Below, piece by piece: positions 15,737-26,427 of a DNA stretch of 36,767 nt. The stretch lies in contig JAJTGK010000064.1 of assembly GCA_021297815.1 (NCBI GenBank), positions 1 through 36,767 on the forward strand, read 5' to 3'. Numbering within the stretch: position 1 is the first letter of the stretch; every line of letters begins with the position of its first letter. This stretch comes from Planctomycetaceae bacterium (GTDB lineage Bacteria; Planctomycetota; Phycisphaerae; Phycisphaerales; SM1A02). Below the pieces are notes generated by a model. The model did no database searches, was not told the DNA's origin, and was given only the letters and a program-made list of their open reading frames with translations. The position numbers and the translations under genes are program-made.

Positions 15737-17023
15737 TCAGGAGTGCTGCTTCGCGGCGTGGGTCGCGCTGCCCGAGGCCTTCGCCGCACCAGCGATCTTC
15801 GTCGCGTCGGGGTTCAGCCCGAGCAGCGCGCGGATGCGCAGCGGCAGGCTGAAGAGACGGATGAAGCCCTCGCTGTGCTTGTGGTCGTAGACCTCGTCCT
15901 CGCCGAAGGTGGCGAAGCCGTGGTGGAAGAGCGAGTTTGGCGAGCGGCGCTTCACCGCCTCGGCGCGGCCCTTGTAGCAGCGCACGACGACATCGCCGTC
16001 GAGGACCTGGGCGATCGCCTCGAACGAGGCCCACATCGCCTCGCGCGTCGGGCTGAACCAGGTGCCGTTGTAGATGATCTTCGCGAAGTCGAGCGCCAGC
16101 TTCTCGCGGAAGTGCAGCGTCTCGCGGTCGAGCACGAGCTGCTCGAGCCCGCGCACCGCCTCCATGAGGATCGTGCCACCTGGCGTCTCGTACACGCCGC
16201 GGCTCTTCATGCCCACGAGGCGGTTCTCGCAGATGTCGACGCGGCCGACGCCGTTGCGCCCGCCGATCTTGTTGAGCTCGGTCAGGAGCGACACGGGGTC
16301 CATCGCCTTCCCGTTCAGGTGCGTCGGGCGGCCCTTCGAGAAGGTGAGCATCGCGTCCTCGAACGCGTCGGGCGCGTCCTTCGGGCTGACCGAGATCATC
16401 CACACATCCTCGGGCGGCGCGTTCCACGGATCCTCGAGCTCGCCGCCCTCGTGCGAGATGTGCCACATGTTGGCGTCGCGCGAGTAGATCTTCTCGGCGC
16501 TCGCCGCGCAGGGGATGTTGCGCTCCTTGAGGTACGCGAGCATCGCCTCGCGGCTCTTCAGGTTCCAGATGCGCCACGGCGCGATCACGGGCAGCTGCGG
16601 CGCGAGCGACGCGTAGGTCGACTCGAAGCGCACCTGGTCGTTGCCCTTGCCCGTGCAGCCGTGGCAGAGCGCGTCGCAGCCCGTCGCGAGCGCGACCTCG
16701 ACCTGCGCACGCGCGATGATCGGCCGCGCGATCGAGGTGCCCATCAGGTAGCGGCCCTCGTACACCGAGCCCGAGATGCACATGGGGAAGACGAACTCCT
16801 CCATGAACTGCTTCTTCAGGTCGACGACATGGCAAGACTTCGCGCCCGTGCGGATCGCCTTCTCCTCGATGCCCTCGAGCTCGCGCGCGCCCTGGCCCAC
16901 ATCGGCCACGCAGGCGATGACTTCGCAGCCGTAGGTCTCGACGAGCCACGGAATGATGCAGGAGGTGTCGAGGCCGCCTGAGTAGGCGACGCACACGCGG
17001 GTGGGCTTCTTGGTCTGGCTCAT
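15737..17023 (-). CDS. argG: Argininosuccinate synthase
   Basis: ArgG condenses citrulline and aspartate with ATP to give argininosuccinate. The 428-residue product has the N-type ATP pyrophosphatase P-loop AYSGGLDTS (residues 13-21), the block CHGCTGKGNDQVRFE for aspartate/citrulline binding, and the late blocks IGGRNGVGRVDICENRLVGMKSRG-like and GVYETPGGT. The last about 20 residues are Ala/Gly/Ser-rich and outside the family core. It lies 57 bases after argF and precedes argHA, so the last two steps of the pathway are adjacent. Confidence 0.97.
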   Translation of the reverse strand: MSQTKKPTRVCVAYSGGLDTSCIIPWLVETYGCEVIACVADVGQGARELEGIEEKAIRTGAKSCHVVDLKKQFMEEFVFPMCISGSVYEGRYLMGTSIARPIIARAQVEVALATGCDALCHGCTGKGNDQVRFESTYASLAPQLPVIAPWRIWNLKSREAMLAYLKERNIPCAASAEKIYSRDANMWHISHEGGELEDPWNAPPEDVWMISVSPKDAPDAFEDAMLTFSKGRPTHLNGKAMDPVSLLTELNKIGGRNGVGRVDICENRLVGMKSRGVYETPGGTILMEAVRGLEQLVLDRETLHFREKLALDFAKIIYNGTWFSPTREAMWASFEAIAQVLDGDVVVRCYKGRAEAVKRRSPNSLFHHGFATFGEDEVYDHKHSEGFIRLFSLPLRIRALLGLNPDATKIAGAAKASGSATHAAKQHS

Positions 17024-17080: not shown

Positions 17081-18088
17081 TCAGGCATTCGTGGTGGCGG
17101 GCTCGCGGCGCACCGAGCGCGCGGAGCCGTTCGGAGGAAGCGCGCCGAGAAGCGCGAGGAGCAGCGCGTTCTGCGCGTGCATGCGGTTCTCCGCCTGGTC
17201 GTAGATCACCGAGTTCGTGCCGTCGATCACGGCGTCGACGACCTCCTCGCCGCGGTGGGCGGGCAGGCAGTGCATGAACTTGGCGCGCGGGCCTGCGATC
17301 GCCATCACTTCGGGCGTCACGGTAAGGCGGCGGAGCGAGGCGATCTTCTCGGGGCAGTCCTGCTGGCCCATCGAGATCCATGCGTCGGTGTAGACGGCGT
17401 CGGCGCCGCGGATGGCGGCGGGGTCGTCGGCGAGCACGATCGACGCACCCGTCTTCGCGGCGATAGCCTCGATCTCGGCCGTCAGCACGGGGCAGGGTCG
17501 GTGCGACGGCGGCGTGACCACCGTCATGCGGCCACCCGTCAGCGCGGCGAGCTCCATGAGCGAGAGGCACACATTGTTGCCGTCGCCGAGCCACGCGAGG
17601 TGGCAGCGCTCGAGCGCGATGCCGTGCTCGACGATGGTCTGTGCGTCGGCGAGCGCCTGGCAGGGGTGCGCGATCTCGCTCAGCGCATTCACGATCGGCA
17701 CGCGGCAGTTCGCGCGCAGCGCCGTCAGCGTGTCGTGCGCGAACACGCGCGCCACGATCGCGTCGGCCCAGCGCTCGAGGTTGCGCCCGTAGTCGCCCAC
17801 GGGCTCGCGCGCGCCGATCCGCTCGTTGCGGTGGTCGAGGAACGACACGCATCCGCCGAGCTTCTGGAAGCCGATCTCGAACGACACGCGCGTGCGCAGC
17901 GACGGCTTCTCGAACAGCATCACGAGCGCGCGCTGGGCGAGCGCCCCCTGGAACGCCGCATAATCGGCCTTGAGCGCGCGCGCGAGGGCGAGCAGCGCCG
18001 CGATCTCGCCCGCCGAGAGATCGGTCAGGCGCAGGATCGAGCGGCCCTTCAGGCCCTCGAGGATGGAAAAGTCGACAGGTCGTGCCAT
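17081..18088 (-). CDS. argF: Ornithine carbamoyltransferase
   Basis: ArgF makes citrulline from ornithine and carbamoyl phosphate. The 335-residue protein has the carbamoyl-phosphate block KPSLRTR (61-67), HPCQALAD (141-148), the ornithine loop DAWISMGQ (235-242) and the C-terminal HCLPAHRGEE (273-282). The SMG loop argues for ornithine and against acetylornithine as substrate. The ATG at 18088 is chosen; an upstream ATG at 18208 would run into argB coding sequence. The C-terminus (RSVRREPATTNA) extends slightly beyond the family core. Starts 38 bases after argB. Confidence 0.96.
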   Translation of the reverse strand: MARPVDFSILEGLKGRSILRLTDLSAGEIAALLALARALKADYAAFQGALAQRALVMLFEKPSLRTRVSFEIGFQKLGGCVSFLDHRNERIGAREPVGDYGRNLERWADAIVARVFAHDTLTALRANCRVPIVNALSEIAHPCQALADAQTIVEHGIALERCHLAWLGDGNNVCLSLMELAALTGGRMTVVTPPSHRPCPVLTAEIEAIAAKTGASIVLADDPAAIRGADAVYTDAWISMGQQDCPEKIASLRRLTVTPEVMAIAGPRAKFMHCLPAHRGEEVVDAVIDGTNSVIYDQAENRMHAQNALLLALLGALPPNGSARSVRREPATTNA

Positions 18089-18126: not shown

Positions 18127-19002
18127 TCAGACGAGCGCGGTGCTCGAAAGGGGGGAAAGGATACGGGTTCCCGTCGCGCCTGTCGCGATGGCGGCGGGGT
18201 CGCGCCACGAGGCGATGGTCGCGGGGCAGCCCGCCTGCGCCGCGGCGTCGAGCGCGTTGCGCACCTTGGGAATCATGCCGCCCGAGATCGTGCCGTCGGC
18301 GATCAACGCCTCGATGCGCGCGGCGTCGAGCTCGGGGATGAGCGCCTTCGACGCGTCGAGCACGCCTGCGACATCGGTGAGGAGCACGAGACCCGATGCG
18401 CCCACCACGCGTGCGATCGCGCAGGCGGCCTCGTCGGCGTTCACATTGAGCGGTTCACCCGCGGCCGAAAGCCCGATCGAGTTGACGACAGGCATGAAGC
18501 CCGCGGAAAGCAGCGTGTGCGCGACCGTTCCGTCGCCGCCCGTGATCTCGCCGACCTCGCCCGCGTCGAACGCGAACTTCGTGGTGTGGCGGCACTGGCA
18601 CAGCCCGCCGTCCGACAGACCGAGGCCCACGCAACGCGCGCCCTGCGCGGCAAGGATGCCGAGCAGGCGCATGTGCGCGCTGCCCGCGAGCACGCCGACC
18701 ACCTGGTCGATCGCCTCTCGCGTGGTCACGCGAATGCCCTCGATGCGCGGCGTCTCGATGCCGACGAGCTTGAGCTGGCGGTCGACCTGCGCGCCGCCGC
18801 CGTGGACGAGCACGATGCCCGCGCCGCCGCGCGCGCGCACCGCCTGATGCAGCGCCACGAGGCCGCGGAACGCGTCGAGGTGCTGGTCGGCCGACTCGAG
18901 CAGCGCGCCGCCGATCTTGACGATGAGCGGGGCGGGAATCGGGGCGGGGGCCGACGCGGCGATCTCGACCGCCTTCGATGGATGCGGAACGCCGCGGCTC
19001 AC
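18127..19002 (-). CDS. argB: Acetylglutamate kinase
   Basis: ArgB phosphorylates N-acetylglutamate, often the feedback-controlled step. The 291-residue product has the amino-acid kinase blocks IVKIGGALLE (27-36), VLVHGGGAQVDRQL (64-77), NVNADEAACAIA (187-198) and SGGMIPKVRNAL (240-251). The start is GTG at 19002, whose last two bases are part of the argC stop codon (GTGA overlap), so argB translation is coupled to argC. The first about 23 residues are an extra Ala/Pro-rich stretch. A Cys-rich GGLCQCRHTTK block near residue 132 occupies the substrate-side region. Confidence 0.95.
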   Translation of the reverse strand: MSRGVPHPSKAVEIAASAPAPIPAPLIVKIGGALLESADQHLDAFRGLVALHQAVRARGGAGIVLVHGGGAQVDRQLKLVGIETPRIEGIRVTTREAIDQVVGVLAGSAHMRLLGILAAQGARCVGLGLSDGGLCQCRHTTKFAFDAGEVGEITGGDGTVAHTLLSAGFMPVVNSIGLSAAGEPLNVNADEAACAIARVVGASGLVLLTDVAGVLDASKALIPELDAARIEALIADGTISGGMIPKVRNALDAAAQAGCPATIASWRDPAAIATGATGTRILSPLSSTALV

Positions 19003-20069
19003 GCGGCACCTCCGACGCCCACGGCCGCGGGCAGGAATCCCGCGGTTTCCTCGAGGCCGAAGCGCAGGTTCATGCACTGCACGGCCTGCCCGGCGGCGCC
19101 CTTCACGAGGTTGTCGATCGCGCTCTCGACGATGAGGTGCGTGCCTTCGAGCGCGAAGCCGATGTCGCAGAAGTTCGTGCGCTCGACCGTCGCCACGCTC
19201 GGCCAGCGGCCCGACTTCAGGATGCGCACGAACGGACGGCCCGCGTACGCGCGTGCAAACGCGTCGCGCACATCGGCCTCGGTCGTGCCCGCCTTCAGCT
19301 CGAGATGCACCGTGGCCAGGATGCCGCGGTCGTAGCAGCCAAGGTGCGGCGTGAAGATGGTGGCGATGCCCGCGTGCTCGGCGATCTCGGGGCGGTGGCG
19401 GTGCTTGAACACGCCGTACGCCTGCATCGAGACCTCGCAGAACAGGCTCTTGACCTCGGCCTTGCGGCCCGCGCCCGACACGCCGCTCGTCGCGTCGACG
19501 ATCGCGGGGCGCGAGAGATCGACGAGCCCCGCCTCGACGAGCGGACGGATCGCCAGGATCGACGCGGTCGGATAGCACCCCGGCACCGCCACGAGGCGCG
19601 CGTCGGCGATCGCCTCGGCGTTGAACTCGGCGAGCCCGTACGCCGCCTCGGCGAGCAGCGCGGGGAACTGGTGCGCAAAGCCGTAGTTCTTCTCGAACAC
19701 CGCACGGTCGGACAGGCGGAACGCCGCCGACAGGTCGAGCACCACGATGCCCGCCTCGACGAGCGCCTGCGCGACCTCATGCGAGAGCTCATGCGGCGTG
19801 GCCAGGAAGATCGCATCGAGCGCGAGCGCCTTCGCGGCCTCCACCGAGAACGGCTCGACCCTCAGCGCGCCGACCGCAGAGCCCTCGAAACGCGGGAAGA
19901 GATCGGCCGCCGTCGGCGCGCCCTCTTCGGCCTTGCGCGACGAGCCGAACAGGCCCACGGTCTCGGCGGCGGGGTGCGCCGACAGGATCGCGAGGAGTTC
20001 GGCGCCTGCGTAGCCGCTCGCGCCCACGACGGCGCAGCGGATCGGATCGGTGGAGAAGGAGCGGGTCAA
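18999..20069 (-). CDS. argC: N-acetyl-gamma-glutamyl-phosphate reductase
   Basis: ArgC reduces N-acetylglutamyl phosphate with NADPH to the semialdehyde. The 356-residue protein has the Rossmann start CAVVGASGYAGAELL (12-26), the catalytic Cys165 in VAVPGCYPTAS, and HRHRPEI (223-229), where the family places its catalytic His. TSGVSGAGR (near 194-202) is also conserved. Starts 62 bases downstream of the argR remnant and overlaps argB by four bases. Confidence 0.97.
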   Translation of the reverse strand: MTRSFSTDPIRCAVVGASGYAGAELLAILSAHPAAETVGLFGSSRKAEEGAPTAADLFPRFEGSAVGALRVEPFSVEAAKALALDAIFLATPHELSHEVAQALVEAGIVVLDLSAAFRLSDRAVFEKNYGFAHQFPALLAEAAYGLAEFNAEAIADARLVAVPGCYPTASILAIRPLVEAGLVDLSRPAIVDATSGVSGAGRKAEVKSLFCEVSMQAYGVFKHRHRPEIAEHAGIATIFTPHLGCYDRGILATVHLELKAGTTEADVRDAFARAYAGRPFVRILKSGRWPSVATVERTNFCDIGFALEGTHLIVESAIDNLVKGAAGQAVQCMNLRFGLEETAGFLPAAVGVGGAA

Positions 20070-20131: not shown

Positions 20132-20462
20132 TCAGTCGAGCCCCGCGAGCTCGCGGATGCTCTTTGCGATGCGCCTCGCGGCAAGATCGCTGCTCGCCGC
20201 GAGGAAGATCGTGTCATCGCCCGCGATCGAGCCGAGCACGCCCTTGAGGTTCGCGCGGTCGAGCTCGATGGCGAGCGCGTTGCCGTGGCCGATCGGCGTC
20301 TTGAGGACGACAAGCGTGCCGCCCACATCGACCGACAGGAGCTCTCGTCGCCTGCGTCGCCTCGATGCCCTCGCGCGCGAGCAGGCGGCCGAGCTCATGC
20401 TGGCTGTGCACGCCGCCTGCGGCGATCAGGGTGCGGATGGTGGCAAGGCGACGGGACTTCAT
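20132..20462 (-). pseudogene. argR: Arginine repressor remnant with internal deletion
   Basis: Two pieces of ArgR lie in different frames. The first begins at an ATG (20462-20460) and reads MKSRRLATIRTLIAAGG, then HSQHELGRLLAREGIEATQAT, the start of the winged-helix domain up to the recognition helix. At about 20345-20350 this becomes RRELLSVDVGGTLVVLKTP in the next frame, the C-terminal arginine-binding and hexamer domain, ending SIRELAGLD. The missing part is about 40 residues: the rest of the recognition helix (normally SRDLRELG), the wing and the linker. The 331-base span is not a multiple of three. Read as it stands, the N-frame yields a truncated, wrongly joined product. A short repeat GGCGACG next to the joint suggests deletion between repeats. 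A sequence or assembly collapse is the alternative. Confidence 0.85.
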
Positions 20463-20639
20463 GGGGACTCGATGCGGAGAACTCGGGCAGATGCGGCGTG
20501 CGAACCGCGCGATCGGAACTTGTTCGGCCTCGCGGGACGCGGACCTTCGGGCGCTCGCTCGGACGACGGAGCGGCCCTGACTTTCTCGCCGGCTTCCACG
20601 GCTGCTGGGAAAGGGCCGCACCTGCGACCCGGACGGAAG

Positions 20640-20668
20640 AATATACAAACGACTGAATGAGAATGCAA
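20640..20668 (-). promoter_or_regulatory. arg operon promoter with overlapping ARG box
   Basis: On the - strand TTGCAT (20668-20663) and TATATT (20645-20640) are 17 bases apart, a good housekeeping promoter. Lying on it is TGCAT-TCTC-ATTCA (20667-20654), which matches the ArgR operator TGAAT-N4-ATTCA at nine of ten half-site bases. Binding there would cover the -35 element and spacer. The leader to argR is about 170 bases. No second box was found nearby; ArgR operators usually come in pairs. Confidence 0.75.
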
Positions 20669-20717
20669 GCGCCGCCCCGGGTTTTCCACATCGCGGGCCT
20701 CGGAGCCCGAAACACCG

Positions 20718-20811: not shown

Positions 20812-21492
20812 TCATTCCTCGCCGCCGTCGTCCTCGTCGTCGTCGTCGTGCATGTTCTCGAGCTGCTCGGGAATCGTGGGCAGGATCGGCTTGCCTTCGG
20901 CGGCCATCTTGCGCTTGTAGACCTCGATCTTCTGCTTCTCGGGCACCAGGATCATGCCCATGCGACGCCCGTTCAGGCGCGGCGGCACCTCGACCTTCGC
21001 GAGGTCGGACAGGCGGTGGATGATGTCGTCCATGCGCATGTCGCCCTTCTCGCGGAACGCCATCTCGCGGCCGCGGAAGTTCTGGATGATCTGCACGCGA
21101 TGGCCTTCGATGAGGAAGCGGCGGGCCTGCGCGACGCGGATGTCGACATCGTGCGGGTCGATCTTCATCGAGCGGCCGAGGCGCACTTCCTTCATCTCGG
21201 AAGCCTTGCTCTTGGCCTTGTTCAGCTTCTCCTTCTTCGACTGCTCGTACTTGAACTTGCCATAGTCCATGATCTTGCACACGGGCGGACGGCTGTCGGG
21301 CGAGATCTCGACGAGATCAAGACCGAGGTCGTACGCGCGGCGCTTGGCCTCGTCGAGCTCGACCACGCCGAGCATCTCTCCCTCGGGGTCGAGGAGACGC
21401 ACGGGAGTGATGCGGATGCGGTCGTTGATGCGCGGACCAAAATCACGCTGGTCACGCGAGGGGCCTCCGAACGGTCGACGCGGCGGATAGAT
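20812..21492 (-). CDS. infC: Translation initiation factor IF-3, AUC start
   Basis: IF-3 keeps ribosomal subunits apart and checks the initiator codon. The 226-residue product has the N-domain (RINDRIRITPVRLLDPEGEM, VVELDEAKRRAYDLGLDLVE, CKIMDYGKFKYEQ), the linker and the C-domain (VRLGRSMKIDPHDVDIRV, EVPPRLNGRRMGMILVP). The last about 12 residues are an acidic tail (DDDDEDDGGEE). The only start that keeps the whole N-domain is ATC at 21492: no ATG, GTG or TTG lies between the upstream stop (21498-21496) and the GTG at 21402, which would cut away the conserved RINDRIRIT strand. A strong AAGGAA (21505-21500) sits seven bases before the ATC. A rare start codon is the known basis of infC self-control in E. 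coli (AUU). rpmI and rplT do not follow. Confidence 0.94.
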   Translation of the reverse strand: MYPPRRPFGGPSRDQRDFGPRINDRIRITPVRLLDPEGEMLGVVELDEAKRRAYDLGLDLVEISPDSRPPVCKIMDYGKFKYEQSKKEKLNKAKSKASEMKEVRLGRSMKIDPHDVDIRVAQARRFLIEGHRVQIIQNFRGREMAFREKGDMRMDDIIHRLSDLAKVEVPPRLNGRRMGMILVPEKQKIEVYKRKMAAEGKPILPTIPEQLENMHDDDDEDDGGEE

Positions 21493-24233: not shown

Positions 24234-26339
24234 TCAGCAGGTCGGGCAGGCGCCCCAGCCACCGAGGAGGATCGAGAGGTCGGCGGCATTGGTCGTGCCG
24301 TCGCCGTTGAGGTCGCCACCCGCGCCGTTCCACGCGCCGAGGAGGACCGAGAGGTCCGCAGCGTTCGTCACGCCGTCAGCGTTGAAGTCGGTCGCGCAAG
24401 CCGGGCAGGGGTTGCCCAGGATGTTGAGGGCGGGCGAGTAGACCACCGCAGCCGACGAACCGGCGCAGGGGAAGTACACGCCGTTGAGGGCGGTGTACTT
24501 CACGAAGCCGGCGGCAGCCGTGTTGCCTTCGCACTCGTTCGTCGTACCGGCGATCACGACCTCGTTGGCGGGGCCGCTACCCGACTGGACGCTCGAGCGC
24601 CACAGGAAGTAGCCACCCGGGAGGGCGGGATCGGGGAAGACGACGGGCGAGTTCGGTGCACCGATGAACCACGCGTAGTTCGAGAGCACCGCCTGGCCGT
24701 CGCTCGCGCGGCAGGGGTTGCCGACCGCCGAAGCGAAGACCGTCAGGTAGTACTCACCCGCGGGGAGGACGAGATCCGCGAAGATGTCGGCCTCGCCGTT
24801 GGCGCCGAGGGTCGGATAGGTGATCTGACCCGAGGCGACCTGGTTCGCCGCGTAGTTCGGCACGGTCGTGCCCGAGCGGCTCCAGATGATCCAGTTGAAC
24901 TTCTCGTTGAGGGTGCCAGCGGGCTGGAAGCCTTCGGGCGAGATGCGGGCGAGCTTCCACGAGTTCTGCGGGCCCGAACCATCGGGGTCAGAGACCGTGA
25001 AGGGAACCGCGAGCCAACGCTGCGGAGCGGTGGCCGCGATCGGGCCGCTCGAGAGGCCGAGGTTCACACCAGCGCCAGCGGCGTCGCAGACGGCCGCGTG
25101 GGTGCCCGTCGTGTAGACGACGCGCTCGACGGTGATCTGGACATTGCCCGCGCCAGCGGTGCCTTCGGTGCCGGGGGTGGCCGGGTTGCCCCAGATACCC
25201 ACGCGCCAGAGGTAGTACTGGCCAGCGACAACGCCGGGGAGGACAGCGCCCTCGCCGCCGATGCCGTTGACATCGACGCAGCCGAGGAAGTTGTTGGCGA
25301 GGTCAGCACCGACCACGGTCGAGGTCGCGCCCAGGCCGTAGGCCGAGAGGACGACATCCTGGGTCGGCGAGTTGCAGATCAGGGTCATGTTGCCGTCGGC
25401 GGGCGACTGGGTGACGAACCAGACATCCTTGAGGGTGTCCGAGCCGCACTGGCCGTTGTTCGGGCCGTCGGTCGTGGCGTTCGTGTTGTCGAACACAACG
25501 ATCGCGTCGATCGCAGCAGCGGTCGGCGAGGTCGCGCAGTCGTTGGCAACGCCCGCGCCAGGAGCCGAGCAGTTGTAGACGAAGATGCCGCAGCCGCCGT
25601 TGGCGGTGGGCTGCTGGGCCGCGGTGGCGCAGCTGGCGTCCCACGCGATGTCGCAGCAGAGCGGGTTGATCGTGCAGATGCGATCGCAGCAGGCCACATC
25701 GGTGCAGCCAGCCTGGGCGGGGGTCGCCACGCCGCAGGTGCCGCCAGCGGGGTTGCCGCACGACGAGAACTGCGAGAAGCGCGCCGACACGGTCGCGAGG
25801 TACGGCGACTCGCAGGGAACGCCACCCGAGGTGGAGAACTGCGTGGTCACGATGCACATGTAGGTGCCCGGTGCCGCGTAGAACTCGGGGTAGGCCGCGG
25901 GGCAGGTCGTGAAGGCGAAGCCACCGACCGAATCGCAGTCAGGAGTGACTCCGTCAGCGAGGAAGTTGCCCGAGAAGATGAGGATCTGGCCGGCGGGAGC
26001 GGCAGCGGGGTCGGTCATCGCGACCGAGATGTTGACGAAGCAACCCTCGGTGACGGTGAACGAGTACCAGTCGATGTCGCGCGAGCCCGAAGCCGCGTCG
26101 GCGCCGCAGGTGCCGCTGATGGTGAACGACGACGAAGCCGTCGAAAGGTTGCCGGTCGCCTGGAAGGCGACGGGGCTGACATTGCAGCCGCCGTTGGGGT
26201 CGGCCGTGCCCGTCACGGGGCAGCCGCCATCGTTCTGGACATAGTTACCCGTACCCGTGGTGCACTGGCCATACGCCGAGGCCGCCAGCAGCGTCCCGAG
26301 CAGCGCTGCGCCGGCGCTCATGTACTTACCGCGAATCAT
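24234..26339 (-). CDS. Large secreted protein with dockerin-like C-terminal repeats
   Basis: A 701-residue exported protein of unknown function. MIRGKYMSAGAALLGTLLAA and SAYG form the signal peptide (1-24). The body consists of Gly/Ala/Thr-rich beta-type sequence with several Cys-bounded segments. A short cysteine cluster, VACCDRICTINPLCCDIAWD, is a motif type seen in extracellular proteins of Planctomycetota and myxobacteria. The last 57 residues (645-701) hold two dockerin-type calcium loops, DFNADGVTNAADLSVLLGAW and DLNGDGTTNAADLSILLGGW, bounded by CPAC and CPTC. Dockerin modules bind cohesins, but no cohesin is visible here and a cell-surface or sorting role is equally possible. The ATG at 26339 is chosen because GGAGG lies five bases before it; an ATG at 26351 overlaps that site. 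Confidence 0.88.
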   Translation of the reverse strand: MIRGKYMSAGAALLGTLLAASAYGQCTTGTGNYVQNDGGCPVTGTADPNGGCNVSPVAFQATGNLSTASSSFTISGTCGADAASGSRDIDWYSFTVTEGCFVNISVAMTDPAAAPAGQILIFSGNFLADGVTPDCDSVGGFAFTTCPAAYPEFYAAPGTYMCIVTTQFSTSGGVPCESPYLATVSARFSQFSSCGNPAGGTCGVATPAQAGCTDVACCDRICTINPLCCDIAWDASCATAAQQPTANGGCGIFVYNCSAPGAGVANDCATSPTAAAIDAIVVFDNTNATTDGPNNGQCGSDTLKDVWFVTQSPADGNMTLICNSPTQDVVLSAYGLGATSTVVGADLANNFLGCVDVNGIGGEGAVLPGVVAGQYYLWRVGIWGNPATPGTEGTAGAGNVQITVERVVYTTGTHAAVCDAAGAGVNLGLSSGPIAATAPQRWLAVPFTVSDPDGSGPQNSWKLARISPEGFQPAGTLNEKFNWIIWSRSGTTVPNYAANQVASGQITYPTLGANGEADIFADLVLPAGEYYLTVFASAVGNPCRASDGQAVLSNYAWFIGAPNSPVVFPDPALPGGYFLWRSSVQSGSGPANEVVIAGTTNECEGNTAAAGFVKYTALNGVYFPCAGSSAAVVYSPALNILGNPCPACATDFNADGVTNAADLSVLLGAWNGAGGDLNGDGTTNAADLSILLGGWGACPTC

Positions 26340-26427
26340 GCGATCCTCCAAAATCTGAACCTTGGACTTGTGGGACGGTCAATCCTCGGAAACCGGATCC
26401 GAGCGATTACCTCATCAAGCAACCTCG

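Follow-up and report, generated by a model that had tools for sequence, protein, structure and literature searches.

In this family, ArgR is a repressor that occupies tandem ARG boxes together with arginine. The ArgR/AhrC proteins combine the PF01316 and PF02863 domains and are represented by the solved structures 3lap, 1f9n and 1b4a. ArgR regulons commonly include argR itself, according to PMC5343134, and PMC9239276 describes selected ahrC mutations in S. aureus that raised the transcription of argGH. A search of the open-licence literature returned no paper on ArgR in Planctomycetes, and none on an argR that was deleted in nature and whose operator remained.

The window, by which we mean the whole analysed stretch of 36,767 nucleotides, carries an argR locus which resembles those of the ArgR/AhrC family in the position of the gene ahead of argC and in the tandem boxes over its promoter. 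Both parts of the gene are clear ArgR sequence; unlike in the family, the reading frame is lost and so, it appears, are the recognition helix, the wing and the linker, and the gene would not be a working member. In this planctomycete of freshwater type, the argR gene at the head of an autoregulated argR-argC-argB-argF-argG operon was probably destroyed not long ago, when 116 nt were deleted and the frame was shifted. As in the S. aureus ahrC mutants, the repressor would be lost and the pathway kept, and a rise in arg transcription is to be expected here; those mutants, as PMC9239276 presents them, were laboratory-selected and tested by RT-PCR, whereas the present case is one environmental assembly.

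Remnants of the argR gene

The sole argR found in the assembly is broken and spread over two frames of the minus strand, which bears out the proposal of an earlier note on this DNA that the gene had been split and a segment deleted. The 5' part (codons 1–39; 20346–20462) aligns without gaps with the 15 intact genes of the genus and takes in the first and second helix of the DNA-binding domain. Its PF01316 match (20346–20459) covers only model positions 3–40 of 70, so that the winged helix-turn-helix domain is incomplete. From the ATG at 20462 the frame runs through 39 native residues (MKSRR...EATQAT) into 43 out-of-frame residues, and the resulting 82 amino acid product ends at the stop codon at 20216–20214. 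The 3' part (20135–20347), in the other frame, specifies 71 codons of the arginine-binding C-domain (RELLSVDVGG...AGLD) without a stop or indel, and is followed by a stop codon at 20134–20132. It matches PF02863 over model positions 4–67 of 68 (20153–20344, 64.8 bits) and retains the sequence GSIAGDDT, a form of the GT/S-IAGDDT motif which we take to play a role in the arginine-binding, oligomerising C-domain. The mechanically called ORF that contains this domain (88 amino acids, 20132–20398, minus strand) has its only ATG within the 5' part, in a different frame, and thereby gains 17 unrelated residues.

From ATG to stop codon the gene measures 331 nt. Of 15 genomes of the same genus, 13 have a gene of 447 nt and the other two have genes of 462 and 459 nt. 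The two ArgR domains do not lie in one frame, since 331 is of the form 3n+1, and the frame is lost at 20346. The absent stretch of 116 nt amounts to 38 codons plus 2 nt, in agreement with the earlier estimate of about 40 missing residues. At the joint (20346–20347, minus strand) the two sides share a 2-nt overlap, CG, the parts adding up to 117 + 213 + 3 = 333 nt where 331 are present. In alignments with intact ArgR and with the solved ArgR sequences the lost stretch starts at LSRDL, which we assume to be the recognition helix, followed by the wing and linker. Since the missing part should hold these three elements, it is predicted that no working repressor can be made. The deletion and frameshift would have removed them from argR, the remaining pieces would be unable to bind ARG boxes, and any C-domain that is still translated would be without its DNA-binding part.

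A GGCGACG repeat beside the joint had been taken to suggest a deletion by recombination. This origin was rejected, as the joint does not separate the two copies: they are found on the same flank and form native coding sequence (GAG GCG ACG CAG GCG ACG), these codons being unchanged in the intact argR of two relatives, G006 and G014.

The earlier note also called for a search for a second argR, and none was detected: a profile search of the whole assembly (3.03 Mb in 180 contigs, 88.37% complete) gave a single PF01316 and a single PF02863 match. A relocated copy of the missing segment was likewise discarded, there being no further match to either profile in the assembly.

The arg operon and neighbouring genes

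The operon runs on the minus strand from about 20670 down to 15737, and its downstream genes are open and full-length, as had been stated before. argC (18999–20069, with a TTG start as listed) is an open ORF with full-length tblastn partners. argB (18127–18942, start approximate) covers AA_kinase positions 3–234 of 234, argF (17081–18088) possesses the OTCace_N and OTCace domains, and in argG (15737–17023), as in argB and argF, the Pfam domains are whole. With infC, this makes five compared neighbours that are unbroken.

The infC gene for IF3, upstream on the minus strand (21402–21480), is unusual in that its true start lacks ATG, GTG or TTG. A stop lies one codon ahead of ATC TAT CCG CCG CGT..., and the gene seems to start at this ATC; the first usual start, the GTG at 21402, falls inside the IF3 N-domain. 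In G006 and G007 the infC start codon is ATT. Rare infC start codons are known in other bacteria. Elsewhere in the window (24234–26351, minus strand) a 705 amino acid ORF shows, by eye from its translation, a signal-peptide-like start and two dockerin-like repeats at the C-terminus (FNADGVTNAADLSVLL and LNGDGTTNAADLSILL).

Promoter and ARG-like boxes

Ahead of argR lies a promoter-like element (20640–20668, minus strand) consisting of TTGCAT (20668–20663), a 17-bp spacer and TATATT (20645–20640), and the same element can be aligned ahead of argR in the genus. When the promoters of the genus are aligned on TGTATA, ARG-like boxes 20 bp apart occupy positions -40, -20, 0 and +20, over the -35 and -10 elements, and there are up to four copies per promoter. 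The genome of the window (G000) retains the core pair. The box over the -35 element, TGCATTCTCATTCA (20654–20667, minus strand; the -20 box), scores 14.2 bits (p 0.005 in 1000 shuffles of 1100 bases), and that over the -10 element, TGTATATTCTTCCG (20634–20647, minus strand), lies 20 bp from it and scores 11.0 bits. Their sum of 25.2 was reached in none of 500 shuffles. The good box that the earlier note had placed over the -35 element is thus present; its description of the operator as intact is right for the core pair only, because the outer boxes are lost. The -40 place (20675–20688, minus strand) is degenerate at -2.1 bits, where 10 of 15 relatives exceed 8 bits, and at the +20 place (20613–20626, minus strand) the score is -6.3 bits, where 14 of 15 relatives exceed 10 bits. 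At the -20 place 10 of 15 relatives exceed 10 bits.

Summed over the -40, -20 and +20 places, G000 has the lowest score (5.8), followed by G004 (6.2) and G006 (9.3). Since the latter two have an intact argR, weak operators alone do not indicate loss of ArgR. Other relatives with an intact gene also have poor boxes: G015 is without the +20 box, and low scores at the -40 place are seen in G004, G006, G009, G010 and G013. Judged by sequence, the promoter boxes imply that argR would be autoregulated.

Exact TGHATNNNNATDCA sites occur at six more places in G000, on contigs C28, C50, C83, C132, C148 and C169 (L139, L145, L151), the control pattern giving 0.

Comparison with other planctomycetes

All 15 same-genus genomes (G001–G015) have a single intact argR, with one match each, and the inactivating change is absent from every one of them. 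The earlier note would have read an intact argR of about 450 bases in a relative at this place as a sign of assembly collapse. Such relatives exist; they are, however, other species (74–86% DNA identity in argC), and therefore show the ancestral state and not a collapse of the assembly. No same-species genome in which to check the deletion was found among the compared genomes, the nearest having 86% DNA identity in argC, and IMG/VR gave no match.

In the family (61 genomes) an ArgR C-domain match accompanies every strong argC (37 of 37; E <= 1e-40), and two genomes, G034 and G052, have two such matches. Among PF01316 matches above the cut-off, that of G000 stops at model position 40, whereas those of the other relatives end at 52 or later; the cut argR matches of G029 and G039 look like contig ends, and neither genome has a strong argC match. 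The 16 ArgR-free family members were considered as precedents for loss of the repressor with a kept operon and were set aside: 11 are without any ArgC match and the matches of the remaining five are weak (best E 1.9e-31, with an internal stop). In this family, therefore, the presence of argR is mostly coupled to that of argC. The order-level genomes outside the family number 40, of which 30 carry argC at E <= 1e-40; as 24 of these 30 are without an ArgR C-domain match, ArgR-free arginine synthesis is common there.

The boxes were surveyed at 51 planctomycete argC loci (L053–L103) out of 80, 29 with gammaproteobacterial titles being left out. An ArgR with its model covered nearly end to end lies ahead of argC at 44 of the 51. 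Six of the other seven (L067, L075, L077, L089, L092 and L099) belong to genomes with argC and without an ArgR C-domain match or box pair, and are separate ArgR-free cases; the genome of the seventh, L090, has ArgR elsewhere, and this locus, with argC at a contig end, was for that reason excluded when boxes were counted. A box pair, defined as two boxes spaced by 18–22 bp in the 1100 bases ahead of argC, occurs at p < 0.05 in 44 of 44 ArgR-bearing loci (p < 0.01 in 41) and in none of the six ArgR-free ones; the box model was trained on promoters of the genus, so that nine of the 44 loci are not independent and 35 come from outside. Operator and repressor thus go together among the loci scanned, and G000 is a mismatch, with the operator pair present and the repressor broken. 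Since the pair tracks ArgR and is present in G000, an ancestor of the cell was presumably under ArgR control. The six ArgR-free operons likewise keep argC without ArgR; they differ in having neither boxes ahead of argC nor an ArgR C-domain, whereas remnants of both survive here. Across planctomycetes (G001–G015, L062–L103), tandem ARG-like boxes 19–20 bp apart overlap the argR-argC promoter.

Selection on the argR remnants

A codon model was fitted with each of 16 taxa in turn as foreground. For both argR parts of G000 together, omega is 0.113 as against 0.055 elsewhere, the highest of the 16 values and not significantly different (LRT 2.79), and an omega of 1 is rejected (LRT 19.4). Fitted separately, the 5' part has an omega of 0.087 and the C part one of 0.121, with an omega of 1 rejected for the latter (LRT 12.5); the control genes of G000 give 0.092 vs 0.064 (argC, slightly raised as well) and 0.035 vs 0.036 (infC). 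For the fraction of the G000 terminal branch spent in neutral evolution, the best fit is 0 with the joint data, values above about 8% being excluded, and 5% with the C part alone, where values above about 28% are excluded. These estimates carry the limits that synonymous change on the G000 branch is near saturation (t about 2–3), that the other branch lengths were fixed and that the topology used has weak nodes (bootstrap 47–71).

The difference in omega not being significant, relaxed selection was rejected as evidence that would prove the pseudogene real and older. The 5' part, useless alone, is conserved like the C part, so the conservation reflects the time before the break. With both halves constrained and no significant relaxation, the deletion is either young relative to the split from the sister species or an artefact of assembly or strain; the lack of relaxation fits a very young deletion and an artefact equally.

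Origin of the break and state of the operon

The explanation is an ordinary one: either a known regulator has recently become a pseudogene, or the break is an artefact of the assembly or of strain mixture. On balance we take the deletion to be real in the organism, though it is seen in one assembly only, because the two sides of the joint have next to no sequence in common and the compared neighbours are unbroken. That the cells have an intact argR and the gap was introduced by a chimeric read, by the collapse of a variant or by a minority strain in the consensus is rather unlikely. Such an artefact would agree with a draft of 180 contigs at 88.4% completeness, with the conservation of both argR halves like that of a working gene, with an intact argR in every other member of the genus and with a core operator pair as in ArgR-bearing loci. 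The persistence of this pair, in contrast to six of six ArgR-free loci, counts against a real loss of argR. An assembler would seldom be expected to lose 116 nt where the two sides share just 2 nt, an overlap far below assembler word lengths, which argues against the artefact, as do the five unbroken neighbours and the fact that the rest of the assembly contains no second fragment of argR. The decay of the two outer boxes is a mild sign in the same direction, pointing to weaker ArgR control, although some relatives with an intact argR are similar.

If the break is real, the operon might still be repressed by a second ArgR encoded in the 12% of the genome that is missing from the assembly. The completeness of 88.37% leaves room for one, and two of the 61 family genomes do have two C-domain matches, but each of the 15 genus members has exactly one match and this alternative is improbable. 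Retention of the C-domain as a stand-alone protein (ORF 20398–20132), an arginine-binding hexamer part without DNA binding, is more improbable still: its open frame, with all the conserved C-domain positions and a strong PF02863 match, and its omega of 0.12, far from 1, would suit such a protein, whereas the equal conservation of the 5' half, which would then have no use, and a lone ATG that lies out of frame and prefixes unrelated residues do not.

Returning to a recent loss of argR, we infer that the deletion is present in living cells and that the arg operon is transcribed constitutively. As the recognition helix and wing are gone and the assembly yielded no other ArgR, derepression is the most likely state of the operon as far as the genes and boxes allow a prediction; it would then be expressed regardless of arginine.

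It may also be, as a tentative extension, that the regulon is midway in the loss of its regulator, the outer boxes having decayed first and argR having then been deleted, with the core pair not yet erased. If true, the order of loss (outer operators, repressor, core operator) would be readable from one genus.

Significance

As a single draft assembly, the case is mainly a caution, for one short gap makes a repressor a pseudogene. The tandem ARG-like boxes 19–20 bp apart ahead of argR-argC are useful for planctomycete annotation. If the deletion is real, the locus would be a natural derepressed arg operon and would date the point at which control by arginine begins to be lost; since operator boxes occur only with ArgR among the planctomycete loci scanned, this genome would represent an intermediate state.
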